A stretch of 64,000 nucleotides of DNA from Planctomycetia bacterium. Lineage in GTDB: Bacteria; Planctomycetota; Planctomycetia; Pirellulales; Thermoguttaceae. The translations under genes were made by a program, and so were the position numbers. The stretch lies in the NCBI GenBank assembly GCA_030527105.1, contig JAUNBK010000001.1:1-64000 (forward strand). Reading direction: 5' to 3'. Below, one piece after another: positions 9,013 to 58,325 of this stretch. The notes below the pieces were generated by a model that was not told the DNA's origin, made no database searches, and worked only from the letters and a program-made list of their open reading frames with translations. Numbering within the stretch: the stretch's first letter is position 1; each line of letters begins with the position of its first letter.

Positions 9013-9257
9013 AATTTCTCTTCCAGAAATCTTACTATAACCTCATGTACTTAAAATTACGATACTTTTAATATCCGAACGCAAATGGTGGGCTTAAATG
9101 CAGGCTTGTTAGTTATAACAGGCCTGCTAGATACAGCTGTACCCAGGTTTACAATCTTAGACACTATTTTCATAAATTAATTTTTATTAGTGTATTACTC
9201 TGTTATCGTCGTATATAACTAATGTATAAAATTTTTTCTTTAGAAAGGAGATGAAAT
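9013..9257. other. Host-phage junction region, no gene
   Basis: 245 bases without a supported gene. GC content falls sharply across it. A weak hairpin (ATTTCT/AGAAAT) lies just after the cyclophilin stop. TTAGTTAT (9109-9116) and ATAACTAA (9215-9222) face each other about 100 bases apart. They are half-sites of the palindrome found at 23334 and 53400. I see no tRNA end and no duplicated core, so an att site cannot be named. Confidence 0.5.
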
Positions 9258-9959
9258 ATGAGTTACGGTATCATGACAGCAGAGGAACTTTTGGAGGTTT
9301 TGAAGGTCTCTAGAAAGTCACTGCATAGATTACGAGAGATGGAAGGGTTTCCTGCTCCTGCGCGGGTAGGTAATATCGTAAGGTATGACGGAGATGCGGT
9401 AATGCGTTGGTTTATGTCACAGAAGAAAGACAGTAATAGTATTTCCAGGCATAATATCTCAGGAGAGGTTGTTATGGCTGGAAAGAATAATGATGGCGAG
9501 TATGTGTTTATCGATAATGCCAGTAATCAGATACAGTCTGAGTATGCGCAGATACTGGCTAAAGCATTGACAGGCGTTACCGGGGGTGTTGTGTCACACA
9601 TGTATGTAGCTTATAACAATGACGCGGCTCCTACGGCGGATGCTTTTGATGTGTCGGATGGTGTTGAGTATTTTGTGAATTTGACGGGGAGTAAGGATTT
9701 TATTAAAGTGCCTGTTATTGTTCTTCCGTCTAAGACTGAGGATTCTTCCAGGTTTCAAGTAATTGTAGGAAACAGTGTAGGCTATAGAGGTCTGGTATTT
9801 AATGAGTCTTCGTGGGTTTATTGTATTGCTCTAGTTGCAGAAACTGCAAGTGACGATGTTACCAGAGACAAAATATTTGCAAGATTGAATTGGACGCCAC
9901 CAAGACAGAAAACAGCAGATCAGTTGAGTATTGACTGGACTATTAAATTTACAGAGTAA
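9258..9959 (+). CDS. HTH_17-type DNA-binding domain fused to a phage virion-like domain
   Basis: A protein of 233 residues with AAAGGAG seven bases before the ATG. Residues 1-52 match an excisionase/MerR-like helix-turn-helix: TAEELLEVLKVSRKSLHRLR, then FPAPARVGNIVRYDGDAVMRW. Residues about 73-233 are a beta-rich domain (MYVAYNNDAAP, FINLTG-like strands, IFARLNWTPP) of the kind seen in phage structural proteins; I do not recognise the exact family. An internal ATG (9474, residue 73) has its own AGGAG at 9461-9465, so the C-terminal domain may also be made alone. It is the first gene on the phage side and ends at a strong bidirectional terminator. The HTH may act in lysogeny or excision control. 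Confidence 0.65.
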   Translation: MSYGIMTAEELLEVLKVSRKSLHRLREMEGFPAPARVGNIVRYDGDAVMRWFMSQKKDSNSISRHNISGEVVMAGKNNDGEYVFIDNASNQIQSEYAQILAKALTGVTGGVVSHMYVAYNNDAAPTADAFDVSDGVEYFVNLTGSKDFIKVPVIVLPSKTEDSSRFQVIVGNSVGYRGLVFNESSWVYCIALVAETASDDVTRDKIFARLNWTPPRQKTADQLSIDWTIKFTE

Positions 9960-10670: not shown

Positions 10671-11690
10671 TTAAGTTGCTGGTACGACAGTAACCGGGTC
10701 GCCAGAAGCCGACAAGCCGGACGGGTTGAAATCGGCACGTGCCAGTCCGCCAAGGTTGCCAATTCCGATACCAGAACTTTGATACTGGAACCAACTTGTC
10801 ATAAAGGCCTCGGATTTGACATACAGTGTGAGAGGTTCCAAAATGAAGTGTCTTCCAATATACTTTGGTTCTGCAAAGTAATAGACAGTCCCGTTTGGAA
10901 TCAGTTCTGATTTGATGGATACGATAAAATCAATACCCATCCGTCGGTGATCTGTCATACCATTGCGGATAATATCCCCTGCCATCGTGTCACCCGTTTC
11001 GTCGTGACCCCATTTAGCCAGTTGCAACCAGGTATGCGTGTTGGTGAGGGCGACGGAGGGATTAAGATGGTTCGGAAGAGACGACATGATAGCCGTGGAT
11101 TCCACCAGGTTTTCTCGCGTCATTCCTTGTTCAAAGCTACGCCATTGCGGTGCCGTCTTGATACCAATCCCCATCGATCCGAGAAAGTCGCTTACGCGAA
11201 TACCTTCATCCACTGCCTGCAAAAACCGGCGGTCGATTTCATTCTCGATGTGTTTGGTTTGCTGGTCAAGCAAAATTTGACGCACATCGTAGCGATAAGT
11301 CAGAAGCTCAGCCACGTCCATGGTGTACATTCGCGTGATAATTCGGTTAAAATACACGCAATACTGCTTCTGATCCATCATGATGGTAGACGGTACGGTA
11401 CCGAACTGTACCGTGATTGCTCCTGTGGAGTTTGGCTCAACAGGGACAACCACAAAGGGTTTTCGTTCCGAAGGGTGAACCGCCAGCTCTTCTTTGGTAA
11501 TAGTCTCCGGCGGCAGAATCTTGGCTGCCCAGGAGTCTTCGTACAGTTTTGTGCGTGTTACCTCTTCTACGCTGGCAAGTTTCACACGTTCTGTCGGATC
11601 ACCTTTACCGGCAAGTTCAAAAGTATTAATAAGACGAGCGTTCAGCTCTTCGTCTCGATAATCTGTATTTTGTGATGCGCTAAATTTCAT
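10671..11690 (-). CDS. Major capsid protein (probable, HK97-fold)
   Basis: 339 residues. The pattern is that of HK97-type capsid proteins: an extended helical N-arm (RLINTFELAGKGDP), a long helix rich in charged residues around 150-175 (DQQTKHIENEIDRRFLQAV), a strand-loop with VALTNTHTWLQLAKWG near 230, and a C-terminal P-domain-like stretch (YFAEPKYIGRHFILEPLTLY, then SEAFMTSWFQYQSSGIGI). There is no obvious N-terminal propeptide. It is the largest gene in a dense leftward head block, next to an acidic scaffold candidate. Other possibilities are a vertex or decoration protein, but length and context favour the capsid. Confidence 0.7.
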   Translation of the reverse strand: MKFSASQNTDYRDEELNARLINTFELAGKGDPTERVKLASVEEVTRTKLYEDSWAAKILPPETITKEELAVHPSERKPFVVVPVEPNSTGAITVQFGTVPSTIMMDQKQYCVYFNRIITRMYTMDVAELLTYRYDVRQILLDQQTKHIENEIDRRFLQAVDEGIRVSDFLGSMGIGIKTAPQWRSFEQGMTRENLVESTAIMSSLPNHLNPSVALTNTHTWLQLAKWGHDETGDTMAGDIIRNGMTDHRRMGIDFIVSIKSELIPNGTVYYFAEPKYIGRHFILEPLTLYVKSEAFMTSWFQYQSSGIGIGNLGGLARADFNPSGLSASGDPVTVVPAT

Positions 11691-18889: not shown

Positions 18890-21223
18890 TCAGAGCAGTT
18901 TTCGCTTATCAGGCGGTGCGATAGCCCCTGTTAAACCAAAATCACTATCCCCGAAAGCCAACGCGGGGACGTAACTGGAGCCTTCGGTGTAGCTGGTGCC
19001 GCCTCTTCGGGCAGACTCTAACACGCTGGATTGTTGGTATCCGCCTAGCATTTTCGTACCCCAGTCCGGGTCGTTAGCCACGTGAGCCATTCCGCGAACC
19101 ATTTCCGGCTCAAAGGGTGGCGGGTCTTTGTGCGCATAAACATTTTTCACACCGTAGGCTTCCAGTTCTTTAACGACAGAGGGTCGTAATTTGGTTCCTA
19201 CCGTGTAATGCAACACCGGTTTTTCCAGGTATCGATTGGTCAGTTGCTTGGGCGCCCCCTGCATGAAACCTTTACGCGGTTCCCAGTTGTGCGTTACCAT
19301 GGCGTAGGGGAGTACGTCATCAGGTACATAGTCGCCTAATTCATCGGTAAGACGTACATAGCTGATAAGACCTCGGCTGAGTGCTTCCAGATTACGTCGA
19401 TGTACGGATTGCCCCGCGTTTCTTAGAGCGGCTTGAAATTGATTGACAAAAGCTCTTCGGCCTTCGCCAATTCCTTTATACTTCACTACCATGGCAGGAT
19501 TGGGAATGCCGTCGGAAATTACATCCCCGGCTTCTACAGTATCACCAGGTTTGACAAGCAGATCAATGTCCGTACCTTGTTGTTTTCCTACATAGTGACG
19601 CACTCCGTTAATATAAACATACTTTCCACCCTGTGGAGCGTCTTCAATTTTACCAATAGTTCCATCTTCCGTAGCATGAACCGCACCATGCTTGAATTTT
19701 TGAGGTACTTGGATCATCTGATTCAGATATTCAAAACCAGAGATGGTTTTTCCTGCTCCGACAACACCTCCCGTGTGTTTGGAATTGGAACAAATCATAC
19801 CGTTGGCGAGCACAAATAAATGGTCTGGATGATCTACCTCAATGTCCATTGTTTCCAGTTCGCCAACATACATCTGGTCTTGCCGTGTCAGAGCTTTTTG
19901 TAGTTTATCATCATGTAAATACAGAAGGTTATCAGACAGTAAACCTATGGGAATCTGCTTATTGGTATTGTCAAGTACTCCAAGGAATCTATGTTCCAAG
20001 GTAGAAGCTACTGTAATATAACTTCCTTCCGCTATTTTATAGGTGGTAGAGTAACAAGATTGTATGCCATTATGGAAAATGTTGACAACCTCTACCGGGA
20101 ACGTACCGCCCTCTGTGTTGGAGCCAAGTACATAATCCCCTATAGCAATATCTCTGAGTTTTTTGACAGTATTATCTGCCATTCGGACAGTCGTGTTTGG
20201 GTGCAGGCAGGAGATAGAACTTTGTGTGATAGGTTCCGTTACTGCTTGTACCGCGGATATGCCTACAAAATCTCCGATAGCCGGACGTGTTCCCGATTCC
20301 CGCAAACCAGCATCGTAAGAATAAATACCACCGTCTGTCGGTCCGCCTACGGTTACGGACCTGACCAGAATTCTTTTATGTCCTTTGGAATCCAGGTCTT
20401 GCAGTATTTTCGGTGTGAGTAACGTGTTTCTCGGATAACCACCTACAGGGTGTGCCAGATACGCACCCTCATTACCCTCATCCATAGTATCCGCCGGGTA
20501 GCCTCTTGGGTTTGTCTCGTCGTAAGGGTCTGGATCGTCGTCCGCAGTGACAACTTCCCTGTGAGCTATTTGCACCAATTGTTTGGCAAGAAAACCCGCG
20601 TCGGCAGTCGCTTTCTGCAAGTCAACACCGCCTTTGCGCGCACCGTAGGCACCTGCAATGTACTGCACAGGAGTCAAGCCCTTTCCATAACCGCGTGTAA
20701 TAGGTACAGGCACAGGACGGCCTTCCGGGTCTTCGTATAACAAGTCCGCGCCAACGATAGAGGTGTAGGGAACCACTTTATTTCCCAGGGTACCGGTGGC
20801 CTGATGATACAGAGGTGATTCTTTGCGCTCTTTGAGAATCTCTTGCTTGATAATAGGTTGGTATTTAAGGGTGTTTTGAACGATCTCTTTCTGTACTCTG
20901 GGGTCGTCGCTCAGAACTCTCTTTTGATACCATTTAGCGAGAATCTTCTCTGTTTCATCTTCAATACGGTTTCGGATAGCTTCCATCGCTTTGATTTCCG
21001 CCGCGTCGGATACCGAGAAAGACTGTCCGCCTGTAAGGTAAGCAGCCTCCGCGCCGAATTTAAGGATTTTGTGAGAAATTTCCTTAAATTTGTCAGGATG
21101 TTTCCGTGCCAACTCTGTCAAAACTTTGGATGTTGTTTTAGAGTCCCATACACGATAATCATCTCTCATATCATCCGGCAACATCTCGTTAAGTATCACA
21201 GAGCCTACCGTTGTTTCCGTCAC
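18890..21223 (-). CDS. RNA polymerase beta'-like protein with an in-frame mini-intein
   Basis: 777 residues, about 635 after splicing. It matches the C-terminal half of bacterial beta' (RpoC): residues 175-225 (ITRGYGKGLTPVQYIAGAYG, then ARKGG, then TADAGFLAKQLVQIA) correspond to the bridge-helix region. VRSVTVGGPTDGG (288-300) and GDFVGISAVQAVTEPITQ (317-334) lead into the trigger loop, which resumes as SKHTGG (481-486). GEGRRAFVNQFQAALRNAG (586-604) corresponds to the conserved VNEVQKVYR region, and LGGYQQSSVLESARRGG (726-742) to the late-beta' segment. The zinc-binding Cys of beta' are lost, and the NADFDGD catalytic barrel is not in this protein. It overlaps the portal gene by four bases. 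Likely one subunit of a split phage polymerase or a virion derivative. Confidence 0.88.
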   Translation of the reverse strand: MTETTVGSVILNEMLPDDMRDDYRVWDSKTTSKVLTELARKHPDKFKEISHKILKFGAEAAYLTGGQSFSVSDAAEIKAMEAIRNRIEDETEKILAKWYQKRVLSDDPRVQKEIVQNTLKYQPIIKQEILKERKESPLYHQATGTLGNKVVPYTSIVGADLLYEDPEGRPVPVPITRGYGKGLTPVQYIAGAYGARKGGVDLQKATADAGFLAKQLVQIAHREVVTADDDPDPYDETNPRGYPADTMDEGNEGAYLAHPVGGYPRNTLLTPKILQDLDSKGHKRILVRSVTVGGPTDGGIYSYDAGLRESGTRPAIGDFVGISAVQAVTEPITQSSISCLHPNTTVRMADNTVKKLRDIAIGDYVLGSNTEGGTFPVEVVNIFHNGIQSCYSTTYKIAEGSYITVASTLEHRFLGVLDNTNKQIPIGLLSDNLLYLHDDKLQKALTRQDQMYVGELETMDIEVDHPDHLFVLANGMICSNSKHTGGVVGAGKTISGFEYLNQMIQVPQKFKHGAVHATEDGTIGKIEDAPQGGKYVYINGVRHYVGKQQGTDIDLLVKPGDTVEAGDVISDGIPNPAMVVKYKGIGEGRRAFVNQFQAALRNAGQSVHRRNLEALSRGLISYVRLTDELGDYVPDDVLPYAMVTHNWEPRKGFMQGAPKQLTNRYLEKPVLHYTVGTKLRPSVVKELEAYGVKNVYAHKDPPPFEPEMVRGMAHVANDPDWGTKMLGGYQQSSVLESARRGGTSYTEGSSYVPALAFGDSDFGLTGAIAPPDKRKLL
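19784..20209 (-). other. Mini-intein (Hint domain, no endonuclease) in the beta'-like trigger loop
   Basis: 142 residues (339-480 of the host protein). Block A begins with Cys1 in CLHPNTTVRMADNTVKKLRD and GDYVLG. Block B carries T-x-x-H in STLEHRF. Blocks F and G are near VDHPDHLFVLANGMICSN, with the terminal Asn followed by Ser as +1 residue. The penultimate residue is Ser rather than the usual His. No DOD or HNH endonuclease is inserted. Removing it joins ITQSSIS to SKHTGG, the same length as the uninterrupted bacterial trigger-loop motif, which supports accurate splicing. Confidence 0.9.
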
Positions 21224-23205
21224 ATCCCACCTCCGCCACCGAATTGCTGTTGTAAAACCATGTCACGTCCCTGGGACGCTGCGTTACGTCGGATTTCTTC
21301 GATCATATCTTTCACGAGAGGGTGAAGTTCCGGTGCTTGTTTCTCAAGCTCGATTAGATGGCTGGCGGTATTTCCCTGCATGAATAATTGCGCCAGTGTC
21401 CGCGCTTTCTGGTACATCTTTGGCAAAGGATCGCCTGGCTGATAGCCAGTTTGTGCGATCCAAACAGACACAGGGTCTTGTCCAGGCATAATACCAGGAG
21501 CCATAGGAGGAGCAGCCCCTGCTTGCATGGGCATACCTTGTGCTGGCATACCTTGTGACATATCCGCTCCTCCAGCCATAGGCATACCGCCAGCCATAGG
21601 CATACCGCCAGCGCCTTGTTGTAGTGCCGCCATTGGACCTCCGGGAGCCGCGTCTGATAGTTGTTGTGTAGTTTCCATTAACTCTTGCAATTTGTTTTGT
21701 TGTTCCACCTCGTCCAATTGTTCTTCCATACGTCGTCGGACCTCTTCTTTGTAATTGACTCCGATAGATTCCAAGGCTGTTGTATTGGACATGACTGGCG
21801 AACCAAGCAACTGCAATTTCTGTACTTGTTGATTCAGGTCGTCGATAAATTTAACTGCAATATATTTCGCATTGACAGGCTCCCAACCCAGTAACGCACT
21901 TACACGTTTAACTACAAAAGCCAAAAATTTATCGTAGGAGCTTACAAGTCTTGACCAATAAGAAGAGAACAGTCGCAGCGCTACAGGAGCGACTTGCAGG
22001 GACAGACTTCCTTTGTATAACTCTACAGGAATACCCGCAGAGGTTAAAAAGGTGTCTAAGGTATAGTCCAACAAATCTCTGGGCAATAACTGTGTAGCGT
22101 CACCGCCAAAATACTGATACTGTAACGCACAAGGTGATATATGCCAACTATTTGGATCTTTCCTGCGATTCTCCAGCATAGCTTTCACATGCTCACGAAA
22201 AGAAGCGCCTTCCACCTTGAACACAGGGTCTACAGCCGTTGTATTTCCTGTCGGTGGTGACAATACACGCAAAGGAGACAACGCCTCTTTTGTAATCATT
22301 TCCACATGCAAGTGCAGACTCTGGTGCAACCAGGCATATCGGAAATTGGCAATTGTTTCCGGTATACCCCATCCTTCTGAATTTATACCGGATAGCGTAG
22401 ATGTTTTCAGGTGGAGAATGTTATCTTTGTCAAGCTGTATATATCCGCCATCTCTGGCTGCCTCTAAGACTTCTTGCGGTGCTGTCTCCAACACATGGGG
22501 GGTTCCTTGTTCCAGTAAAGAAATGTAATCTTTGGGCAGTCGCCACAGAATAACGTTCTTTCCTGTGAAGTCGTCATGCAAAATCTCAATGTCGTGAACA
22601 TTCCAGCGTTTGATGTACACATCCGACATGCTCTTGGAGTCGTAATCAATTACATTCCATTCGTCAGAGTAGCCACAATAAGGACATGTTGCTGTAAATT
22701 TCCAATTTTTGAACTTAAATTGGTAGTTAGAGGATTTATCCAGTATCTGAGTAATGGGTGCTTGATGAGAGCAGTTACTTCCGTCTTTATTCTTTCCACG
22801 ACACTGCAACCATCTCTCAAAGGAGATATACACACTGGCAAAAGCATTCCCGTATGTAAGTAAGTCCATACCGATATTAAGCGTTTCGTCATTTATCGAC
22901 AGATAAGCGCTTGACAAAATACTGAGATACCGTTGTCGCGTATCTTTTCCGCTCAGAATCACATCATCAGGACCGTCTACAATCTCTGGCTCTGTGATAA
23001 AAAAAGAGCAAATACGCGATAATGCAGCACGGTACACCCCTGTAACCGATACGATATACTCGCTCCAATCTAATGCCTCATCCATTGTGGTAGGCATGTG
23101 CATGGAGGCCAGGTCTACATACGGATTATGATAGTTACTGTTACCGTTTTGTGCTATTTTCGGTGTTATACGATTTTCCCATAGACGGATTGCTGATCTT
23201 TGCAT
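21220..23205 (-). CDS. Portal protein (probable)
   Basis: 661 residues. Features fit phage portals: an N-terminal region with an Asp-rich helix, YLSINDETLNIGMDLLTYGN (about 103-122) and a central beta wing. Then comes a helical crown with TLDTFLTSAGIPVELYKGSL near 400, and a long C-terminal helical tail with a Met/Gly/Pro-rich low-complexity segment (about 530-590). An unusual insertion carries four Cys (QCRGKNKDGSNC and CPYCGY, about 140-195), which look like a zinc ribbon. It would form the dodecameric DNA entry ring. It sits between the Met-rich small genes and the beta'-like gene, with which it is translationally coupled. Confidence 0.7.
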   Translation of the reverse strand: MQRSAIRLWENRITPKIAQNGNSNYHNPYVDLASMHMPTTMDEALDWSEYIVSVTGVYRAALSRICSFFITEPEIVDGPDDVILSGKDTRQRYLSILSSAYLSINDETLNIGMDLLTYGNAFASVYISFERWLQCRGKNKDGSNCSHQAPITQILDKSSNYQFKFKNWKFTATCPYCGYSDEWNVIDYDSKSMSDVYIKRWNVHDIEILHDDFTGKNVILWRLPKDYISLLEQGTPHVLETAPQEVLEAARDGGYIQLDKDNILHLKTSTLSGINSEGWGIPETIANFRYAWLHQSLHLHVEMITKEALSPLRVLSPPTGNTTAVDPVFKVEGASFREHVKAMLENRRKDPNSWHISPCALQYQYFGGDATQLLPRDLLDYTLDTFLTSAGIPVELYKGSLSLQVAPVALRLFSSYWSRLVSSYDKFLAFVVKRVSALLGWEPVNAKYIAVKFIDDLNQQVQKLQLLGSPVMSNTTALESIGVNYKEEVRRRMEEQLDEVEQQNKLQELMETTQQLSDAAPGGPMAALQQGAGGMPMAGGMPMAGGADMSQGMPAQGMPMQAGAAPPMAPGIMPGQDPVSVWIAQTGYQPGDPLPKMYQKARTLAQLFMQGNTASHLIELEKQAPELHPLVKDMIEEIRRNAASQGRDMVLQQQFGGGGGM

Positions 23206-32573: not shown

Positions 32574-34213
32574 ATTTTAGGGCATTAAAGGTCTCTCTGT
32601 GTAAGTTGCAGGGGGATAACCCCTCTAAAGCCTCCAGAGGGGAGTTTATCGGAGAGATTATCAGTGCTGCATTGCACTGGTCTCTGAACACAATACCTAC
32701 TGCTACAGTAGTACTGCCGCTAGGCGTTAAACTGACGAGCGATGCGACAAAACCTGAATCTTCTTATGTGTATGCAAAGATAATGCCTCTTATTATGCAC
32801 AGAGAGCCGGTTGGTCTGTTTTTAGATATTGAGGTACCGGAGCACGATACACATAATATAGACAATAGAGAACTTCCCTATAATAAACGAATTTGTATCT
32901 TTAAGGGATACATGGATATGCCTGCTATCCAGCTTGGTACGACTAATACATATATGCAGGTACAGCTGACTCACTGGCTGTGCGATACTGCCATTTTCCC
33001 TCTGCTTCACAGGCTGTCACACCCGGAAAATCCTATGGATTACGCTACACATGCCATGTACGGAATTGGCAGTGTAGATACTTTTTCAAGCTCCAGTAAC
33101 GGATTTAATTGGATTCCAATAATTGATGACATACACAAACATATTGAGGGCGGTAAAGTATTCACAGCGATCAAAACTACATTTCAGCATTTCATAACGG
33201 AAGGTAACACCAAATTATCGGATAAAGACCCTGGACACATATCGACTGATTTATTAAACAGAGAACAGTATGCTCTGGATAGTATTATAGAAGACAGTTC
33301 CGCTACGCTGTCAGAAGCCTTAACAGGAAATGAAATACGGCTTTCTATACATAATATACTTGCAAATAAAGAAGCGGAAAAGGGGTATTATGCGACTCCA
33401 TGGAGAAAACTTACAGGACAGTTGTTGCCCCTGTTTTTATTGTCGTGTGTGCCTATGGTAGATAAGGTTATGGTTATACCATCTCCAGGAATTGCCATGA
33501 AGTCGATTAATCCTAAGATTATCAAAACAGATAGCATAGTGCATTATTCCTCTTCTAAAAAATTGTCAGATACATTAGGGTATATGATAGCTGCTCCTAA
33601 CGCTTCCATGTTCTCACGTGTCAATCGTACCAATATAAATACAGTATTACTGGCCTCAAAATACCCTGAACAACCAAAACCAGGTGTTGGAAAAGTATGC
33701 AATATACCTGCATGGATCGTACCTCCAATGCTGTCTAATACGGTACCTGAAACGGAGATCAGGGCAACCTCTGAAGATGCTGTTTCTATAGCAGAGCAGG
33801 ATAATAAGGAGCAGGAAGATAAGATAAATAAACAAATAGATGTAGCTACAGACTGGATTAAGAAATACACAGCTACTATGTATGGTTTGGAGGTTTTAAG
33901 ATACAATTCTGCCAATATACGAACGGTGTTACGTTTTGATTTGTTGCCTGGCTCTGTTATATGTATAGAGGAGGTGTCGGATATATTGGCAAAAGAAGAG
34001 GCAGTACCGAAACAATATGGAACAATTGCGGAGACCGTTATTTCGCTGTCTAATAATGGCGTTTCTACGGATATTAAGGTTATCAATATGCGTACTGAGG
34101 AGCAGTTAAAAGACGAGGACATTACACCATCCGGCAATCTGGTATATAGCTCTGCGTGGAATGCTGTTGATAGTTACTTATATTCAGATGAGGAGGAGTT
34201 AACAAATGGCTAA
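32570..34213 (+). CDS. Baseplate hub candidate (gp27/gp44-like)
   Basis: 547 residues. The first 190 are beta-rich, with HWSLNTIPTATVVLPLGVKL resembling the opening strands of hub proteins that carry a tail-tube-like fold. Later parts are mixed, with a KQY/E-rich helix (about 400-430). It lies after the tape-measure candidate and in the same operon as the spike it would hold. Overlaps the sigma-like gene by eight bases, which ties that gene to tail expression. Identification is by fold pattern and position only. Confidence 0.5.
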   Translation: MNFRALKVSLCKLQGDNPSKASRGEFIGEIISAALHWSLNTIPTATVVLPLGVKLTSDATKPESSYVYAKIMPLIMHREPVGLFLDIEVPEHDTHNIDNRELPYNKRICIFKGYMDMPAIQLGTTNTYMQVQLTHWLCDTAIFPLLHRLSHPENPMDYATHAMYGIGSVDTFSSSSNGFNWIPIIDDIHKHIEGGKVFTAIKTTFQHFITEGNTKLSDKDPGHISTDLLNREQYALDSIIEDSSATLSEALTGNEIRLSIHNILANKEAEKGYYATPWRKLTGQLLPLFLLSCVPMVDKVMVIPSPGIAMKSINPKIIKTDSIVHYSSSKKLSDTLGYMIAAPNASMFSRVNRTNINTVLLASKYPEQPKPGVGKVCNIPAWIVPPMLSNTVPETEIRATSEDAVSIAEQDNKEQEDKINKQIDVATDWIKKYTATMYGLEVLRYNSANIRTVLRFDLLPGSVICIEEVSDILAKEEAVPKQYGTIAETVISLSNNGVSTDIKVINMRTEEQLKDEDITPSGNLVYSSAWNAVDSYLYSDEEELTNG

Positions 34214-34931
34214 TATGTTGGAACCAGAATTACAGGAAGTGTACCAACAATGGAAGATGTACCCAGGACCAGAGACGAACGCTATGTTGGCGGCTAAGTT
34301 ATCTCCGTGGATTTCGCAATCTGTTGTAGCGGCAGGAGGAGACCCTAACAACAAAGCGTTACTTGCCAAGGCACGTATGATGGCAATTGCCAGTCTGAAC
34401 AGGTACAATCCAGAACAGTCCAATATGAAAAATTTCTTGTATGCACAATTACGTGGTTTACATCGTGTTGTGGGCAATGACTCTAACATTATACAAATGC
34501 CGGAACGTATGGTATTAGGAAGAAAGACTATAGATGAGGCGGAAAAAGAGTTGTTAGAGGCACTTGGACGATACCCATCATCTTCAGAACTGGCAGATAA
34601 AACAGGTTTTTCGATTAAACAGATAGAGAAATGGCGGCATGTCAATCTCCCTACAAATGCAGGAGGAGACATAGCAGATATGCCTGGTATGCAGAGGACA
34701 TCTAATCAAACAAAAGCAGATGAAGCATGGATGGAATATGTGTATGATTCTATGCCGGATAGACGTAAAGCAGTTATGGAGCGTCTGTATGGTATGCACG
34801 GATACGATCCTCAGAAGGCTGTAGAGGTGGCTAAACAATTAAAAATCTCTCCAGTATCGGTAAGCCAGCATAAGAAAGAAATTGATAAATTGCTGTATGA
34901 TGATTCGCAGTATTCGTTGTTTGGAGATTGA
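34206..34931 (+). CDS. Sigma-70-family-like RNA polymerase sigma factor
   Basis: 241 residues. Region-2-like helices (about 48-90: ALLAKARMMAIASLNRYNPE, then FLYAQLRGLHRVV) lead to a region-3-like segment (about 115-150: LLEALGRYPSSSELADKTGF, SIKQIEKWR). The C-terminal region-4-like HTH (about 180-232) reads MPDRRKAVMERLYGMHGYDP, then AVEVAKQLKISPVSVSQHKKE. The usual aromatic promoter-melting residues of region 2 are weak. It would direct RNA polymerase to phage promoters. It is fused into the tail operon, overlapping the hub candidate, so it is probably made late and may be packaged or may act with the phage beta'-like protein. Confidence 0.75.
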   Translation: MANMLEPELQEVYQQWKMYPGPETNAMLAAKLSPWISQSVVAAGGDPNNKALLAKARMMAIASLNRYNPEQSNMKNFLYAQLRGLHRVVGNDSNIIQMPERMVLGRKTIDEAEKELLEALGRYPSSSELADKTGFSIKQIEKWRHVNLPTNAGGDIADMPGMQRTSNQTKADEAWMEYVYDSMPDRRKAVMERLYGMHGYDPQKAVEVAKQLKISPVSVSQHKKEIDKLLYDDSQYSLFGD

Positions 34932-35939: not shown

Positions 35940-38882
35940 TTAAACTTGAATGTACAAATTAATAACATTCATTGCGTAAGGTACGGAAACAGCTAATACA
36001 ATAGTAAGCTGGTCCTTAAGCAGTATATCCTGATCAATGGATACGATGGTGTAATCGTTGAGCCTGCCGCCCAAGGATGCGGATGTTGCCACGATACACT
36101 TCTCGCAGTAGTCATGCACGTAATTTTTTACCAATGCAATAGTATTTGCGTTGATGTTATATACGCCGATAAACTGTTTAAGTCCCGATGACAGTTCCAG
36201 GGAAATCTGATCAAGATTGCGTGTAACCATCTCCTCTGTGTAATTCAGGTCGTCTACTTCGGTAGTCAGGCCGTGGAGTACAACAGGAGAGCCATCTCTG
36301 TTTCGACGCACCACCAGTACTCCATTCGCCGCCAACTGTTTGAGTTGTGACTCACTGAACATCGGAGAAGATCGTGTAAAACCGTCAAATCCTGTAATGA
36401 CGCTGTTGGTAAGACTCTGATGAGGCTCTACTCCAGATGCAAGACCGGCAATCGCTGCACATAACATTGTCCCAGGCATGGTAACAGTGCCTTCCGATAC
36501 CTGATCCGGCCATACCAGAGAAACACGTCGATTACGCATGGTTCCTGCAACGTCTGTAATATATTTAACCGCCTCGTCTTTGGTAAGAGTATGTCGGATA
36601 GCAATACGCTGTGGTGTAGCGTTTTCAGCTACTGTCTCCTGAATCGAAATAACATCACCACGTACAGAGGTTACTGTATATGCTTTGTCACTTCCCGCGA
36701 ATACGACAAGCGAATCTCCAGGCTGTACAGATGACAGGTCGACGTTGATTTTACCATCTACACGAGACGTGATATTAACCGTTCCATCACCACTGAACGT
36801 AGCCATTACCGGCTTGCCGTCTGTAGAGGTTGTCTGTCCAACACGTTCCACATAATCAGGACACGCTACCGACAGAAAACAACGTTTCCAGGCACACTCC
36901 TCTTCGTTGGAATCAGCGTCTACAGCCTGAATAGCTGCCGACAGCACGTCGATGTCCTGTGACATAGGAACAACCATATAAACGTTCGTATCGCCCTTTG
37001 CAGCGGATAACGCCTCTGTCCAGGCAGTCAGAGACTCCCCAACCACCGGAGTCCATGCTACATCCGCACCATTGGACATAGTAAGTGCTTTATATACACC
37101 ATACTTAACCGGGTTATCGGGAGACAATTCGCCGGGGATAGTCGCCAGATCGTCTGTGGAACTTACGATATTGATAGCACCGCTACCTTGTGCTGATAAT
37201 TCGTCATACAGCACAACAAGATTACCGTTCAACAAAGTAAGTGATTTGCCAAATGCTTCATTGTAAACAGTGACTCCTGGAGCCGTTGTAATGGTCAACT
37301 CTTCATTATTCAGAGTATAAAACGTATCAGGAACTGTAACTGTCTGCGCAACACACAATTCCACATTAAGAGATACAAGCGCGTCGGATGCTGCCGATCG
37401 CAAGGTTTGCGGCAATGAGTCTTTAAGTAACAGTCCATGCACTGCGCCATTTTTGCTGGCCTCTACTTGTACCATATAAGCCTGTCCTGGAAGCATTTCA
37501 TTCTCACTGAATGTAAGAACAAGTCCGTATTTGGTTGTGATGGAAGTAGAGGCAAGCGATACATTCTCCATATAATCCTCGCCCATAGCGCTGATAATGG
37601 ATACGACAGGTGCGTCGGACGGGTCGCCTACGGTACCTCCTTGTTCGCAACGAATAATATAAGTATCGTCAACTTCTCCACTGTAGGTACCTGAAGTTGT
37701 CAGCGATGCAGGAGTATAAGCCCCTGTGAGTCTATAAGCCCACGTGTCACCGATAGCGATATTATCATAATCGTCATTAGAAAAAGCACCCTGGAAATTA
37801 TTGGAAGTAATGGGAAATACCCAATCCGTTCCTTCGCCACGCACTGCCTGAACATAAGTTGCAGGGTTCGTACCGACAGTAACTGCAAGTTCGATGTTTT
37901 TACAGGCGGCTGTATTGGTTTTGCCCGTAACACGAATAGTGCAGATAGCGGACAATTCGCCATAATCCATAGGATTGTAGGTGCCGGTAATAGTCAGATT
38001 GGTTGCGGCGTCGTACAGGTCTGCCATGACACGTTCAGGATTTGCAGCGGCAAATGCAGAACTTTTAATCATAATAATATATTCCGCGTCGTCCAGAGTA
38101 GACAACTGTGCTTTAATGCCACACGTGCCTACCTGGAACGCGGTTTCGGTTGCAAGCGATGTAAATTCCGACGGATAACTATCCTGTCCACTTGCTGAAA
38201 TAACTTTATACTGACTGTCCTGTACAATTACCGTATAGACATCTTCTGCAAAATTTCCCGTGTAAGTACTTCCGGCAGCAGCACTGATAGCAGAGCCGCT
38301 TGGGAAGGTAGCTGTAGGATTGTTGGCATTGGTGGTACGAATACCGTAACCAATGTTGTCGTCAGTCATAGTGACAACATAATCCGCGACCGTGGTTTCA
38401 AAAGCAACATCACTGCATTCAGTAGCCCCTGCAATATTAGCGGCGTAGGCCTGCAAACGGACGGTATCACCAATCTGCACATCTCTTGTACCGAACATCG
38501 CATCGCGCGTATGACTGCCGTTAGTAGCTACGTTGATGTTGTTAAAAAACAACACGTTCGCAGTTCCTGGTACGTTGTAGACAAACTGTTCGGAACTATC
38601 CTCTGTAGGAGACGCAATTGCCGGGATTTCTGCGTAACGCAAGGTTGCGTTTTCCGCTACCACAGAAACAGAGTCTTTGTCCAGAACATTACCGGCAGTA
38701 AAGCTGGGATAGTTATAGGTACGAACATTATTCTCATACTCTCCTAGTACCGCACGATTGGAGTCTAATGTATGTTTAATAATGGCAGTTCCAACGATCC
38801 ACGAACGTAAAACAGCTTCTGTATTTGTAGGGTTAGTGGAAAGTTGCTGGTACACCCGTACACCCGGTGCTGTATATGGCAT
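35940..38882 (-). CDS. Contractile tail sheath protein
   Basis: 980 residues, larger than usual (about 400-700). The N-terminus (MPYTAPGVRVYQQLSTNPTN) is the standard sheath opening. The C-terminal domain has the canonical order: RRVSLVWPDQ, MLCAAIAGLASGVEPHQSLT, GFDGFTRSSPMFSESQLKQL, ANGVLVVRRNRDGSP and VTRNLDQISLEL. The extra length is a large beta-rich insertion (about 100-620) that probably faces the outside. It forms the contractile outer tail and makes this a myovirus. Confidence 0.92.
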   Translation of the reverse strand: MPYTAPGVRVYQQLSTNPTNTEAVLRSWIVGTAIIKHTLDSNRAVLGEYENNVRTYNYPSFTAGNVLDKDSVSVVAENATLRYAEIPAIASPTEDSSEQFVYNVPGTANVLFFNNINVATNGSHTRDAMFGTRDVQIGDTVRLQAYAANIAGATECSDVAFETTVADYVVTMTDDNIGYGIRTTNANNPTATFPSGSAISAAAGSTYTGNFAEDVYTVIVQDSQYKVISASGQDSYPSEFTSLATETAFQVGTCGIKAQLSTLDDAEYIIMIKSSAFAAANPERVMADLYDAATNLTITGTYNPMDYGELSAICTIRVTGKTNTAACKNIELAVTVGTNPATYVQAVRGEGTDWVFPITSNNFQGAFSNDDYDNIAIGDTWAYRLTGAYTPASLTTSGTYSGEVDDTYIIRCEQGGTVGDPSDAPVVSIISAMGEDYMENVSLASTSITTKYGLVLTFSENEMLPGQAYMVQVEASKNGAVHGLLLKDSLPQTLRSAASDALVSLNVELCVAQTVTVPDTFYTLNNEELTITTAPGVTVYNEAFGKSLTLLNGNLVVLYDELSAQGSGAINIVSSTDDLATIPGELSPDNPVKYGVYKALTMSNGADVAWTPVVGESLTAWTEALSAAKGDTNVYMVVPMSQDIDVLSAAIQAVDADSNEEECAWKRCFLSVACPDYVERVGQTTSTDGKPVMATFSGDGTVNITSRVDGKINVDLSSVQPGDSLVVFAGSDKAYTVTSVRGDVISIQETVAENATPQRIAIRHTLTKDEAVKYITDVAGTMRNRRVSLVWPDQVSEGTVTMPGTMLCAAIAGLASGVEPHQSLTNSVITGFDGFTRSSPMFSESQLKQLAANGVLVVRRNRDGSPVVLHGLTTEVDDLNYTEEMVTRNLDQISLELSSGLKQFIGVYNINANTIALVKNYVHDYCEKCIVATSASLGGRLNDYTIVSIDQDILLKDQLTIVLAVSVPYAMNVINLYIQV

Positions 38883-44711: not shown

Positions 44712-45114
44712 CTATCTGCTTCCGATATACCGTATCTTCAAAAGAGTAAGCCGCACACATGGTTACTTCCTCTTGAATCTTATCAAGAGTTATGGCATTC
44801 TCCAAAGGAGTAGTTTCCAGGGTCACAAGGATTTTATCACCTGCCGGGATACAATCTTTTAGTCGTGGTATGGCCTGGGTCAAGTCTTTTTGAATACAAT
44901 TCTCTTTAATACGCACAGATACAATATGGGATCGTAGCAATTTATCTACAAGAAATTGAAACACGTTCAGTTTTTCCGGCAAATGCGCAGGGGTTGGCTC
45001 GCCATAACTGATTGTCCTTGTATCCAGCCAATGAGCAAGGGTGCTTTTTCGGTATATTTTTCCGTCATGATAAATAACATAATCACGTATATTCAATGGT
45101 AACGCTCCTTGCAT
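44698..45114 (-). CDS. Baseplate-associated phage protein
   Basis: 138 residues from the ATG at 45114. However, AAGGAG lies inside its first codons and is ideally placed for a TTG at 45096, so the real protein may be 132 residues (starting at NIRDYVIYHDGKI). Mixed alpha/beta, with a helix FQFLVDKLLRSHIVSVRIKE. Follows the baseplate J-like gene and precedes the fibre gene, so a baseplate wedge role is likely. No family recognised. Confidence 0.6.
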   Translation of the reverse strand: MQGALPLNIRDYVIYHDGKIYRKSTLAHWLDTRTISYGEPTPAHLPEKLNVFQFLVDKLLRSHIVSVRIKENCIQKDLTQAIPRLKDCIPAGDKILVTLETTPLENAITLDKIQEEVTMCAAYSFEDTVYRKQIDDSH

Positions 45115-46585
45115 AAAATACCGTTGTTCGTGACGTCACACCACGCATTGGGTCATTAGGAGCCTCTGCAAGCTCACAACCAGAGGCCTGATAAACTAAG
45201 TTGTCAGGACCCCATACTTCGGAACTGAGTCGCAACGTATAGAGTTGCTGATCGTTCGTCAGAACATCACCAAGAGCACGCGCAAGTTCTACAGAGGTGA
45301 TGACACCCGCGAAGCCTGTATTGTTGATGTGGTTTGTAATGGTGTTACGTATGGCAGCTTCGTTACCTGCTTTACTTGTGATAGTAACGACAACATCGAC
45401 GAAAGCAGGCCATGCGGCTCTAACAAGCGCATCGTTTGTAACAGGCATTAAAGCTCTGTCTTCCAATACAGCTTGTACTTTATCAATATCAGACTGTCCT
45501 ACAATGGTTACAAGGCAGTCTTTGTTGACATCATCGACAAGACTGTCGGATAGGAATTCGACTAAAATTTTACTGTCAGCGGTATGGGGAATGCCAGTAA
45601 CTGTATGCTTTACAATCTCACAGGATTTATCTTCCAGTCGCACATCGGTTACACGATAACTTCCAGGAAGTGCCTTCGTGGATAATTGCCATCGTGCAAG
45701 TCCTTTATCCATAGTCAGAAAGGTAGCTGGTTCAGTAACTGTCAGAGCGGTGACAGAAGGGGTTGTTTTTACATAAATATCTGCTCTGCCACCTACAGAT
45801 ATAGGAAACACTGTCAGTTTGTCACGCTGCATTTCCGCATCTCCAAAACCGATTACCGAAATATCCACCATTTCAGGGAAGTTCTGCAACAACAGAGCGG
45901 CAATGTTGGCGCGATTACCCCAGCAGGGTGTAGCCATGCCGTCAGCAAGACGTTGCATGACATGTGCGTTGGATTCTGTATCTGATCCAATTGTAAAATC
46001 TTCCGCAGCGGTTATGCGTATTAGATTGTCAAAAGAACTGTCTGTAGTAAACTCTGTTCCTTTGGCAATGAAAGAAGAGGCTCCGGGGACCTCGGCGACG
46101 ACATCTGCATAATAACCAAAAACGTCGTGTGAAATTTGGGACAGTGTGTCGGAAGCCCCGGAGTTTGTTGAATATATCACTACAGAGGAGCTGGTGATAT
46201 AAGTTTCGTCGTTATAATAAAAACGTGTATTGACGGGTAGAAGTACACTTACATTTTCGGAAAACTCCAATAATACCCGTCCGCGACTATAAGTTGCGCT
46301 TTTACGAGTTATATTATAGTTGGAAAATACTTTATCTGCAACTGATTCTTCCGCAAGAGTAGGGTCTTGTGATATACTCAGTAGGCTCTGTGCTGATTTA
46401 TACCGAGAAAGCTCTGTAGAAGTACGGGCAGCCAGAACAGCGTGCAAATAAAGTACAAGGTCGTGCAGGACTCCACGAGAAATGTCAATACCAGGATATT
46501 TCTCTTGAATCAGTTGCGTGAGTAATTGTTGATACTCTGTAACTGTACTAACATCGATTTGGTCAAACGAGTTTACTTCGATCAT
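45083..46585 (-). CDS. Baseplate J-like wedge protein
   Basis: 500 residues. The N-terminal helices match the baseplate J family: GIDISRGVLHDLVLYLHAVL, then TELSRYKSAQSLLSISQDPT, then SNYNITRKSATYSRGRVLLE. Then come a beta domain (SVVIYSTNSGASDTLSQI) and the characteristic GNRANIAALLLQNFPEMVDI and C-terminal IRNTITNHINNTGFAGVITS. It forms the wedges of the contractile-tail baseplate. Overlaps the next gene by 32 bases. Strong family resemblance. Confidence 0.9.
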   Translation of the reverse strand: MIEVNSFDQIDVSTVTEYQQLLTQLIQEKYPGIDISRGVLHDLVLYLHAVLAARTSTELSRYKSAQSLLSISQDPTLAEESVADKVFSNYNITRKSATYSRGRVLLEFSENVSVLLPVNTRFYYNDETYITSSSVVIYSTNSGASDTLSQISHDVFGYYADVVAEVPGASSFIAKGTEFTTDSSFDNLIRITAAEDFTIGSDTESNAHVMQRLADGMATPCWGNRANIAALLLQNFPEMVDISVIGFGDAEMQRDKLTVFPISVGGRADIYVKTTPSVTALTVTEPATFLTMDKGLARWQLSTKALPGSYRVTDVRLEDKSCEIVKHTVTGIPHTADSKILVEFLSDSLVDDVNKDCLVTIVGQSDIDKVQAVLEDRALMPVTNDALVRAAWPAFVDVVVTITSKAGNEAAIRNTITNHINNTGFAGVITSVELARALGDVLTNDQQLYTLRLSSEVWGPDNLVYQASGCELAEAPNDPMRGVTSRTTVFYARSVTIEYT

Positions 46586-53420: not shown

Positions 53421-53885
53421 TTACGGGTGTAGTTGATACGGGATGTAAATCATGATATTGACATCCTTCAAAGGTTCTAATTTACGCTCCATCAAGGGTC
53501 TTACTTCAGACCAGTCAAGCCCTCCTAAGCCACAACCCAATGCCGGTACTGCAATCGATTTTATGTCTTCATCTTGTATCGTGTAAACCAACGCATCTAG
53601 ACCGACTTCAATGTATTCCAGTCTAGAGGCATTTGCACAATTCGCTTTTGTTGGAAAGTTGATGATATATTTCACACCATCTGTACTGCCTGTAGGCCAT
53701 ACATATAACATGCCTGTATAAAGTTGTTGCTCATCGCACAACTTCTTGTACTCTTGATACATTTCCGGGTAGCGTATTTTGAATTGCAGTGCAATACCTC
53801 CACCCATAATACCATCTGTGTTGACAGCGTTGACCAATGCTTCCGCGTCTGATTTGAACAAATCTCCAGTACAAAATGTAATCAT
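53421..53885 (-). CDS. Macrodomain protein (DarG-like ADP-ribosyl hydrolase)
   Basis: 154 residues from ATG 53885 (AGGAG upstream); an earlier in-frame start has no ribosome site. A single macrodomain with EALVNAVNTDGIMGGGIALQ (about 15-35), FPTKANC near 78 and SIAVPALGCGLGGLDW (about 110-125). These correspond to the ADP-ribose-binding loops of DarG and related hydrolases, which remove ADP-ribose from DNA or proteins. There is no C-terminal domain of DarG and no DarT toxin gene beside it. In a phage it may counter a host DarTG or other ADP-ribosylating defence; inference. The promoter carries an inverted repeat next to the -10. Confidence 0.82.
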   Translation of the reverse strand: MITFCTGDLFKSDAEALVNAVNTDGIMGGGIALQFKIRYPEMYQEYKKLCDEQQLYTGMLYVWPTGSTDGVKYIINFPTKANCANASRLEYIEVGLDALVYTIQDEDIKSIAVPALGCGLGGLDWSEVRPLMERKLEPLKDVNIMIYIPYQLHP

Positions 53886-53911
53886 TTCTTCTCCTGTAAT
53901 GTGATAGATAA

Positions 53912-53933
53912 ACACTGTTTACAGTGTATTATA
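53912..53933 (-). promoter_or_regulatory. Macrodomain promoter with operator-like repeat
   Basis: ACACTG-TTTA-CAGTGT (53912-53927) lies directly downstream of a minus-strand TATAAT (53928-53933). The adjacent TTATACGTAT (53930-53939) and ACACTGTTTA also occur together near 60485-60509. Likely a repressor site at the start of transcription. Confidence 0.5.
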
Positions 53934-53972
53934 CGTATATACCTGTGTTAGAAGAGCAAGAAAGAGTATATT

Positions 53973-54560
53973 ATGAACATACAAAAAGACAGAGTAATCG
54001 GACAAGACGGTAAGACATGTTACACTCCTTTTCTTGGGAAGATGGATGACACGGTTTACCGTGCGGCAGAACGGGTACTGCAAGAGCTTGGATGGGAATG
54101 GTCAGAGGACGATAACGCCTACATCTTAAAATTAGATCTTGGCGTGGTTAAACTTACAGAAGTGCTTTCCGTTCCTAAAGAGACAGAAGCGGAATACGCT
54201 GGTTGGTATTGGAAATTTTTCTGTCATACAGTATCTGCTGCGACCACTTGCAACGGTAAAGATGTCGCACCGGGCCAAATACATGACATGCTCAACAAGT
54301 ATATTGACGAACTGGAAGATGTTGAGTACAGTCCAGAAATGGATGTTTATACCCCGGATAGCCGGAAGTGTTTTGTTCGACAAGAAATACACGTAGACCG
54401 ATGGAAGCCCGATTTATGCGTAAAAACATGCCCCTCGCTGTGCGGAGGCACCTGCACCTACTTCCATACACGTCTAAAATACGAACCCATGACTATGGCA
54501 GATAATTATGATGTCGCTTATAGACGCTGCACAGCGTGTGTGTCGGCGGAAGAGATCTAG
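53973..54560 (+). CDS. Cys-rich accessory phage protein
   Basis: 195 residues from ATG 53973. Acidic first half (VLQELGWEWSEDDNAYILKL); C-terminal Cys cluster (CVKTCPSLCGGTC, then RCTACVSAEE, about 148-192) that could bind zinc. Single-gene unit between terminators, oriented opposite to its neighbours, as is typical of accessory cargo genes. Function unknown. Confidence 0.55.
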   Translation: MNIQKDRVIGQDGKTCYTPFLGKMDDTVYRAAERVLQELGWEWSEDDNAYILKLDLGVVKLTEVLSVPKETEAEYAGWYWKFFCHTVSAATTCNGKDVAPGQIHDMLNKYIDELEDVEYSPEMDVYTPDSRKCFVRQEIHVDRWKPDLCVKTCPSLCGGTCTYFHTRLKYEPMTMADNYDVAYRRCTACVSAEEI

Positions 54561-54576
54561 GCTACCATAGCTAAAA

Positions 54577-54606
54577 AAAAGACCATCCTTTATTGGATAG
54601 TCTTTT
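54577..54606. terminator. Bidirectional terminator
   Basis: AAAAGAC-c-ATCC / GGAT-a-GTCTTTT with a 6-base loop and a C/A mismatch; A and T tracts on both sides. It lies between convergent genes at 54560 and 54614. Confidence 0.75.
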
Positions 54607-54613
54607 CGTAAAT

Positions 54614-55291
54614 CTAGAACTCTATTTTTACAGAGTCCTGAGTCTCTGTGATTTTGATACCCAGATCATCAAATGTCAGAATTATGCCTGGATAGGAGCC
54701 TCTGAATCCTGCTAATTCTTTTGGAAAAACAAGCATTAGCTTGTTTTTCCCGTCGGACACACATGCGTATGTTACGCAATAGTGGTCTTCTTTGATCATG
54801 GTATTTGTGTTTGTTACCATTATATTCTGTATATATAGTAACAGTTCTGTGATTGCTTCGCCATACTGCTCCCTTTGTTCGTACGGCACGAAAACCATGC
54901 CCCACGGAGTGCCTACTTGAGCTATACACTCTGGGGGCACGTTATTCAACTGTTCTGGTAGAACAGTTTTAATATTTTCTGGGTTTAGTGCTATGTGGAA
55001 TAGTCGCTCGTTATTCTGTTTCATGGCTAGTTCGTATGCTCGCAGGTCAACTGCGGCTGCCTCTTCTTCTGTTGGCATTTCAATTTCTTTATTTGATTCC
55101 TTAAGCAACTCCCGACATTTTTCGTAAAGGCTATAGTCTTCTGTAGTGGAAGGTGTGCTCTCCATTGCATCCAGCAATTCTTGTGATGCTGGCTCGTCCT
55201 TCTTCCAGAGATCGGAAAAACTCCAACCTCCCATAACTTCATGTGTTTGCAGTAAAATTACCATTGTCAACAAAATTGCTACTTTCTTCAT
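54614..55291 (-). CDS. Exported accessory protein of unknown function
   Basis: 225 residues; ATG 55291 with AAGGAG upstream. The N-terminus (MKKVAILLTMVILLQTHEVM) is a signal peptide with cleavage near MGG. The mature part is acidic with helical and strand segments (HYCVTYACVSDGKNKLMLVF). A phage-encoded exported protein in a single-gene unit may be a lysogenic conversion or superinfection-exclusion factor; inference only. The inverted repeat at 55326-55346 lies 35 bases upstream. Confidence 0.6.
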   Translation of the reverse strand: MKKVAILLTMVILLQTHEVMGGWSFSDLWKKDEPASQELLDAMESTPSTTEDYSLYEKCRELLKESNKEIEMPTEEEAAAVDLRAYELAMKQNNERLFHIALNPENIKTVLPEQLNNVPPECIAQVGTPWGMVFVPYEQREQYGEAITELLLYIQNIMVTNTNTMIKEDHYCVTYACVSDGKNKLMLVFPKELAGFRGSYPGIILTFDDLGIKITETQDSVKIEF

Positions 55292-55325
55292 GTCTCTTCT
55301 CCTTGTTAAAAAATTTGAAATTTTA

Positions 55326-55346
55326 GAACTTACTCCATGTAAGTTC
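55326..55346. promoter_or_regulatory. Inverted repeat upstream of the exported protein
   Basis: GAACTTAC-TCCAT-GTAAGTTC, a perfect 8-base inverted repeat with a 5-base spacer. It lies 35 bases upstream of the ATG at 55291 (minus strand); operator candidate. Confidence 0.5.
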
Positions 55347-55424
55347 CTTTCTTATGTTATATGCCACAAAGAAACAGAAAATTAATATGTTTTAGAGGTA
55401 GCGATAAGTACTATAAAATCAACT

Positions 55425-55454
55425 TTTGCAGGTATAGTGGCAATTGATTATACT
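55425..55454 (+). promoter_or_regulatory. Promoter of the metalloprotease-like gene
   Basis: TTTGCA (55425-55430), an 18-base spacer and TATACT (55449-55454), about 53 bases upstream of the GTG at 55507. Confidence 0.45.
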
Positions 55455-55506
55455 GCATTAAACACATAACTAGACATCTACCGCAATCCATACGAAGCGA
55501 CGTACC

Positions 55507-57069
55507 GTGAATACTACAAAACTTAACAATTTGATAAAGCGTGCAGCTGATTCAAACTTCACACCTGGTGTGCATATTCGACAGACTCCAGCATCTAAAA
55601 AGCCACAGTATGCGGCTTATAATAAAGCTCTTGCGGATTTTAAGACAGACGTAGAAAAACGATTCCCGCATATCGGACTTCGTGTAACTACACATGAAAA
55701 TATCCCTCGTTCTGGATGGAATCCCTCTCACAGACTTCCACGTACATGGGGTGATTTTATACGAGAACGAGTGACCAAGAACCCTTCTTGGTTGACACCG
55801 CGAATATATGAGTGGCCTAATAAACGGATAGAGCCAAAGAATATTAACTATCGTATTGACGGAATACAGCCCCCGTACAGTGCAATCGTACCGATTAATG
55901 CGCAAAGTCAGCGTTCAAAATATATGTTGCCTATGTATAATTTAGGTAGTGATATAGGAGTAGCCTGGCGCCGCCCTAAGTCGCCGCAAGTCTCTACAGA
56001 CAAGCTAGATAGCCGGATGCAGGGCGTAGTAAGAAATGCGCTGTACCATGAACTGACACATGCCATGGACAATGGTTATTATCGTACACCGGTCAATACT
56101 AATCCGATTACAGAAGCATTCTCACATGAAGAGTTACCTGCTGTTATTGCCGAGGCTACACATAGAAATAATGGAATATTCGATCCAAATTATTTTTTCA
56201 TTTCTACGGGTCAAAATACAGATAACTACGAACCTCTGCACGTACGCCACGCAATAAATAAGCCTGATTCCTATACGCAAAAAGATATTAACCCTTACTT
56301 GCGGTATATTATGTCAACAACAAACGATGCCTATGTAACCGCAGATACAGATACAAATTCCGTGGCACCACTTAAAACGCTTGACAATCGTCTAGGATCA
56401 AATACTCAAGTTTTCTACGAGGACGGGCAAGATACTATACAAAATAAGACAAGCGACCCTAGGGAAGCTGCTCGCAATTTACTTAAAAATCGCAAGTCTA
56501 AAATATTAATGCGTGCCGTGCCATTTGATAAAATGCTTACAGAAACAGGTACTTGGGAATATACTCCACGAATAATGCTTAACGGTACAGTACCTAGTTG
56601 GTTACATCAACCAACACCTACTACACAGTTACCGTGGCCTTTCCGTAATATGGTCAACGCTGTAGGAAATTTACAACCAATACAGGCAGTTGAAGATGCC
56701 TTAAACCCTGCCACGTCAAAACAATTCTATACAGCGGATAAGCATTTTCAAGACCTAATGAAACCAGCCACAGAACGGTATTGGGATCAGTCCACACCTG
56801 ATAATAGCACTGTCGCGCCATTACCTATGGGAACTTCTGAATTCTTTAGAAAACACGTAATATCACCTACGATGCACAAACATGATTCTTTATGGAGTCA
56901 AAGATCTTTGAACCAACTCAATAACATGATTAAAGAATACTATGGTCTTATGAATAGAGATAAGGCTATACGAAACGCTACAGACACGGCACCGCATAGA
57001 ATGAGACGACAACAGCAACGATCTGTGACAGTACAACCACTGTCTGGTTATAATATGTATGAGAGCTAA
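55507..57069 (+). CDS. HEXXH zinc-metalloprotease-like accessory protein
   Basis: 520 residues starting at GTG 55507 with a weak ribosome site. It contains YHELTHAMDNG near residue 182, the zinc-protease signature H-E-x-x-H. A downstream acidic stretch includes HEELPAVIAEATHR, which could supply the third zinc ligand and the conserved Glu. No signal peptide. The rest is basic and Asn/Pro/Arg-rich with no recognised domain. Own promoter and single-gene unit. It may be an effector or a virion protein acting on entry; both are inference. Confidence 0.6.
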   Translation: MNTTKLNNLIKRAADSNFTPGVHIRQTPASKKPQYAAYNKALADFKTDVEKRFPHIGLRVTTHENIPRSGWNPSHRLPRTWGDFIRERVTKNPSWLTPRIYEWPNKRIEPKNINYRIDGIQPPYSAIVPINAQSQRSKYMLPMYNLGSDIGVAWRRPKSPQVSTDKLDSRMQGVVRNALYHELTHAMDNGYYRTPVNTNPITEAFSHEELPAVIAEATHRNNGIFDPNYFFISTGQNTDNYEPLHVRHAINKPDSYTQKDINPYLRYIMSTTNDAYVTADTDTNSVAPLKTLDNRLGSNTQVFYEDGQDTIQNKTSDPREAARNLLKNRKSKILMRAVPFDKMLTETGTWEYTPRIMLNGTVPSWLHQPTPTTQLPWPFRNMVNAVGNLQPIQAVEDALNPATSKQFYTADKHFQDLMKPATERYWDQSTPDNSTVAPLPMGTSEFFRKHVISPTMHKHDSLWSQRSLNQLNNMIKEYYGLMNRDKAIRNATDTAPHRMRRQQQRSVTVQPLSGYNMYES

Positions 57070-57136
57070 AAACTAACAATGGGCACGTAGCGACATCTAC
57101 ATACATTACAGCACAGTTCTAAGTATGTAAGTAACC

Positions 57137-57376: not shown

Positions 57377-57472
57377 AGCAACCTCCTAAAATTAAAGTAC
57401 TGTTCTCTATTTACTTATTTTACAAACTAGTCACACTAAAACTTATCAGCATCGTATTTCTCCCTTTCTGCC

Positions 57473-57501: not shown

Positions 57502-57567
57502 GAGCAAACAGTATTTTTTGACTATTGATGTATTATACATTGCGGGGCAGCATAGATACTGAAAGCA

Positions 57568-58317: not shown

Positions 58318-58325
58318 AACAAAAA

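Follow-up and report, generated by a model that had tools for sequence, protein, structure and literature searches.

The gene at 18,890-21,223 (minus strand) of the DNA analysed here (the window: the first 64,000 nucleotides of contig JAUNBK010000001.1, from a Planctomycetia bacterium) raises the question of what a 142-residue insert is doing inside the trigger loop of a protein that resembles the RNA polymerase subunit beta' and is encoded beside a phage portal gene. Multisubunit RNA polymerases use this mobile loop to close their active site. It is probable (about 0.8) that the gene encodes the C-terminal beta' chain (beta'C) of a two-chain phage polymerase type, with a Cys1/Ser+1 mini-intein in the trigger loop that would splice itself out to leave a 635-residue beta'C, and that the intein persists as a mobile element. 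As read from sequence, this interpretation is built on the identity of both parts, the exact insertion site, a complete set of splice residues, allelic inteins in other phages and an intein-free sister. The open reading frame has 777 open codons, a GTG start and a GGAGG-type ribosome site upstream, and is divided as follows.

20210..21223, minus strand: N-extein of beta'C, residues 1-338, with the funnel region, bridge helix and first half of the trigger loop (profile and PDB matches; a predicted helix at residues 320-337 stops right before the intein)
20564..20671, minus strand: bridge helix, residues 185-220 (model helix; aligned GARKG...TADAGF motif)
19784..20209, minus strand: mini-intein of 142 residues (339-480), Cys1 ... 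Ser141-Asn142, without an endonuclease domain (Hint/intein profile matches, conserved splice residues)
18893..19783, minus strand: C-extein, residues 481-777, with Ser+1, SKHTGG including the trigger-loop His (residue 483), and C-terminal beta' (alignment to beta')
18890-18892, minus strand: stop codon of the beta'C gene

The first-pass annotation had matched residues 175-225, 288-338 and 481-742 to beta'. The homology held, though its start at residue 175 did not, since the match begins at residue 2 and takes in almost all of the extein, from the funnel through the trigger loop towards the C-terminus. The Pfam profile PF04998 matches the window protein with an E-value of 3.9e-15, the TIGR02386 rpoC model matches residues 2-628 (E 9e-42), and the protein sequence alone finds solved beta' chains in the PDB (E 3.6e-25), as does a 21-member family profile (E 1.4e-90). 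The predicted structure (mean pLDDT 72) has the bridge helix as a single 36-residue helix, and a structure search with this model returned RNA polymerase beta' chains (E 5e-25). Judged by these matches, the two exteins (residues 1-338 and 481-777) are the C-terminal half of beta'. The trigger-loop His (residue 483) is invariant across 21 aligned sequences, and the bridge helix and trigger-loop Gln are also conserved in the window protein. M932 and R933 of the trigger loop are replaced (by I and S, respectively); R933 is replaced in relatives too, and catalysis may therefore differ from that of cellular enzymes. In the window protein (window 20290-20365) and in its relatives L122 and L123, other residues stand in place of the beta' zinc-site cysteines (CxxxxxxCxxC in relatives), which the other lineages shown in the alignment keep.

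The boundaries, frame and coordinates that had been proposed for a Hint domain at residues 339-480, between ITQSSIS and SKHTGG, are all correct, the junctions being SSIS/CLHP and ICSN/SKHT (a slash marks the splice junction). Alignment to solved beta' chains places S338 at the R933 position, S481 at T934 and H483 at the trigger-loop His 936 (E. coli numbering), and so bears out an insertion between the equivalents of R933 and T934. Two Hint models match the insert (E 6e-4 and 3e-4), as does an intein-containing NCBIfam model (E 1.6e-6), and a profile of three allelic inteins finds Npu DnaE (1e-6), gp41-1 (6.5e-5) and PI-SceI (7.5e-5) among solved structures. The structure predicted for the intein by itself is of low confidence (pLDDT 47.6) because just three sequences are available, yet its top structural matches are inteins and Hint folds. 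All splice residues are present, namely Cys1, T70-x-x-H73, D122, H130, Ser141, Asn142 and Ser+1; those from C1 to N142 are invariant among the three intein alleles. The missing penultimate His had been raised as a possible defect. The insert ends in Ser-Asn, as Npu DnaE does in the alignment, and for this reason the absent His is no objection; together with the profile match to DnaE, this led us to reject the idea that its absence would abolish splicing.

A whole-protein scan for close relatives gave no match, and the relatives came through alignments. The nearest, L122 (IMGVR_UViG_3300029705_000023, 187.7 kb), shares 66-72% identity with the window protein across the two exteins and has an uninterrupted loop, SEPITQAAIS-SKHSGG; the insert is likewise missing from L123 and from about two dozen to about 28 further loci, some of them near-identical. 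A mini-intein stands at the same spot in L117 and L118 (LK/C...TSN/SKHTGG; the 112.9- and 205-kb contigs of L106 and L107), and in L119-L121 one codon earlier (GL/C...VSN/SSKHSGG). Because other large phages carry this insert in this position, it can be taken as real and shared. Splicing had been proposed to restore the motif length, and this stands: the spacing it would leave is exactly that of the intein-free sister, and all the allelic inteins (window, L117/L118 and L119-L121) would splice to an identical loop length. Three residues further on, L124 has a 389-residue intein with a LAGLIDADG-like middle (NFKH/C...SN/SGKK), and its close relative L127 has no intein, which suggests a recent gain or loss.

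In a tree of the exteins, the window pairs with L122 (100/100), followed by L123 and then by L117 with L119. The three inteins are about equally distant from one another (41-44% identical); the exteins of L117 and L119 are 51% identical and each is 39% identical to that of the window. Intein divergence does not track extein divergence, a pattern that an old allele with subsequent losses could explain, as could a degree of transfer. With L123 as the outgroup, 37 changes are found only in the window and 38 only in the sister L122, and by this count the window beta'C has not evolved faster than that of its phage sister.

The relatives also indicate what kind of polymerase such a chain belongs to. 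In Salmonella phage Arash, one small gene comes after the portal gene and before a 1525-residue fusion of beta with the N-terminal part of beta' (beta-beta'N) containing DYDGD; the beta'C gene lies further on, and the two chains are gp206 (DYDGD) and gp216. Vibrio phage D69 and many IMG/VR phage contigs (up to about 205 kb) have the same two-chain architecture. The records of L122 and L123 contain polymerase partner genes, that of L122 (G121) a 1461-residue beta-beta'N fusion with DNDGD. The beta-beta'N fusion and separate beta'C of these relatives mark the window protein as the C-chain of a two-chain polymerase type. A one-chain phage polymerase was also seen, in L064 (4559-11734), where one chain of 2391 residues matches the beta-beta'N fusion of the relatives as well as their beta'C and has a near-canonical trigger loop.

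The window belongs to a contig of 115,958 bp that is bacterial on both sides, with an integrated element at 9,016-72,022 (63 kb). The neighbouring portal gene had been read correctly; the surrounding DNA is not a free phage genome. A 14-bp direct repeat brackets the element: the left copy begins four bases after a bacterial gene, and the right copy lies at contig 72,009, outside the window and just past the last phage gene. G+C is 0.42 between the repeats and 0.51 outside them. The sister contigs examined for an empty integration site either stop too soon or have no right flank, and none displays such a site. The main features of the element in the window are listed below.

9016..9029, no strand: left copy of the 14-bp direct repeat TTCTCTTCCAGAAA, likely att (about 0.03 such matches expected by chance)
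10671..11690, minus strand: major capsid protein (homology, including a G121 match)
21220..23205, minus strand: portal protein (portal relatives at about 25-48% identity; overlaps the beta'C start by 4 bases)
34206..34931, plus strand: sigma-like protein, regions 3 and 4 (PF04539 5e-7, PF04545 0.005; 54% identical to its G121 counterpart)
35940..38882, minus strand: tail sheath protein (phrog_279 4.9e-18; 38% to G121)
45083..46585, minus strand: baseplate wedge protein (phrog_6 2.4e-18)

The portal is homologous to those of phages D69 (about 1e-60) and Arash (1e-56). Many element genes match G121 and the block order is largely kept (capsid, portal, beta'C, sheath, baseplate, sigma-like). The DNA polymerase, helicases, large terminase and beta-beta'N of G121 are all without a counterpart on the contig. 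When the genome (93.9% complete) was searched directly, it gave no beta-beta'N, only bacterial rpoB/rpoC, and no TerL, the latter in a search without a positive control. A partner chain with DxDGD, present in relatives (DNDGD in G121, DYDGD in Arash), was thus not found in the same genome, and we accordingly claim a homologous chain and not part of a functional phage enzyme. The element has the look of an integrated derivative that has been reduced, with the structural block and beta'C remaining. At its border (window 9258-9959), an excisionase-like DNA-binding N-terminus appears to be joined to sequence matching another gene region of the sister phage. The genes at window 53421-64000, and on the contig to 67451, are mostly without a sister-phage counterpart; among them are macro-domain-like genes, AAA ATPases and a regulator that has a metalloprotease domain, and a cargo or defence role is possible.

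A search of host relatives with beta'C returned mostly bacterial rpoC, and therefore the portal was used as the query instead. Besides one further genome of the family, none of 397 genomes of the class yielded this portal. The portal in that second genome, which belongs to the same genus, is 48% identical and has a tyrosine-integrase-like gene next to it; a beta'C of the window kind was not found there.

The element could be a decaying prophage in which the intein may have lost its splicing activity and beta'C lies idle. The failure to find beta-beta'N and TerL in the genome, the lack of a recognised integrase in the element and its size, compared with about 187 kb in the sister phage, all speak for such decay. 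However, the frame and every splice residue are intact, the window lineage shows no excess of changes, and beta'C is the most conserved protein common to the element and G121; we therefore regard decay to this point as unlikely.

If the intein is active, as the preferred reading holds, the Hint domain of the precursor would sit where the trigger loop must fold, and the precursor should therefore be unable to close the active site. Class 1 splicing would proceed by an acyl shift at Cys1, transfer to Ser+1 and cyclisation of Asn142, which would release the 142-residue intein and join a 635-residue beta'C with the ancestral loop TEPITQSSIS-SKHTGG. We infer that such splicing occurs, that the unspliced protein would be inactive and that the mature protein would pair with a beta-beta'N chain. 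Most likely, what persists here is a mobile element whose endonuclease has been lost, and the intein would survive because only a precise deletion is tolerated at a catalytic site.

Inserts are also seen elsewhere in the polymerase genes of this clade. In L116 (5708-13527; G119, 205 kb), beta-beta'N has two more inteins (PE/CCHPD...GN/SLRVGLD and GIVSR/CFDEQ...LGN/TNSAAL) and is interrupted directly after NADFDGD, with an intein-like remainder in the next open reading frame (..LSN/TMTYYVPVS), giving four interrupted sites in the G119 polymerase when its trigger-loop intein is counted. Intein-like inserts occur in the polymerases of L141 (2711-8707; SPE/C...GN/SLRVGVD and KRIG/C...VSN/SMEIAAL) and L142 (4005-13350; KRM/C...VSN/SGFDATAL, with a break after NADFDGD). 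A ribonucleotide reductase-like open reading frame of the G119 phage (L116 17084-19003) also seems to hold an intein. The polymerase inserts make the polymerase genes of the clade look like an intein hot spot.

This distribution bears on whether the intein has been kept as a switch, with conditional splicing (by redox state, metal or temperature) activating the polymerase at the appropriate point in the infection. That three divergent lineages have endonuclease-free mini-inteins in this position is consistent with such a role, and other inteins are known to splice conditionally (PMC5790916, PMC6195587, PMC7360933). However, the closest relatives L122 and L123 lack the intein though polymerase partner genes are present in their records, the inteins have not diverged in step with the exteins, and inteins at several other polymerase sites in the clade, as expected of mobile elements, favour mobile-element biology over a dedicated switch. 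It is distinctly doubtful, then, that the trigger-loop inteins are a post-translational on-switch, with at least one related phage having up to four polymerase sites that would need splicing before transcription by that enzyme.

A further alternative, which we find quite improbable, is that beta'C now serves as a particle protein or as a binder of another polymerase, without a polymerase of its own. Its gene overlaps the portal gene and has been kept without a detected partner, but the bridge helix and the trigger-loop Gln and His are still conserved, and the sister phage, in which the partner chain is present, likewise has its portal and beta'C genes close together. Wrong joining of a phage contig to a bacterial one is hardly credible even in a fragmented draft genome of 210 contigs, given that the 14-bp repeats lie exactly at both borders, that G+C shifts at the same points and that the second genome of the genus has its own related portal and integrase-like gene.

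A trigger-loop intein shared by divergent phages and a 70% identical intein-free sister provide matched natural pairs with which to study whether splicing can control transcription and what lets inteins survive where constraint is strongest; the trigger-loop site is a natural position for a splicing-controlled polymerase. The first-pass annotation had called a trigger-loop intein in a phage polymerase undescribed; no paper describing one was found in the open-licence literature, and it is undescribed as far as our searches reach. A junction of His-Asn followed by TFHx(A/G)G, a pattern that other endings or shifted sites escape, was matched 40 times in 84,980 genomes, each time by chance as judged from context and never in an archaeon or a polymerase; a scan of viral contigs for His-Asn followed by TFH gave 5, also chance by context.

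Among known systems, phages with a deep-branching multisubunit polymerase have been described (PMC7481178), and the Arash/D69 type is possibly related to these RNAP-encoding Caudovirales. As in the window, the two-chain polymerases of Arash and D69 have a beta'C of about 600 residues that is homologous along its length and keeps the trigger-loop His, and their portal and capsid proteins are homologous; unlike the window, they have no intein and encode beta-beta'N, and the window copy lies in an integrated element with no partner found. The jumbo phage polymerases of the PhiKZ/AR9 type are likewise phage-encoded, with a split beta' and a separate C-part, but have more split chains, and the review of split phage polymerases that covers them makes no mention of inteins (PMC7598289). 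crAss-like phages are rich in inteins and introns (PMC7886860). Inteins are known in archaeal largest and eukaryotic second-largest polymerase subunits (PMC1635734); those of Mja rPol A' and of Mja and Nph rPol A'' interrupt the largest subunit, as here, but the enzymes are cellular. The closest likeness of the intein itself is to DnaE-type inteins (Npu DnaE) and gp41-1, its best profile matches among solved structures, which have similar block B and F motifs; Npu DnaE also has the Ser-Asn ending. DnaE inteins have Cys+1. The window intein differs from DnaE and gp41-1 in its host protein and in lying within one contiguous chain, with Ser+1.
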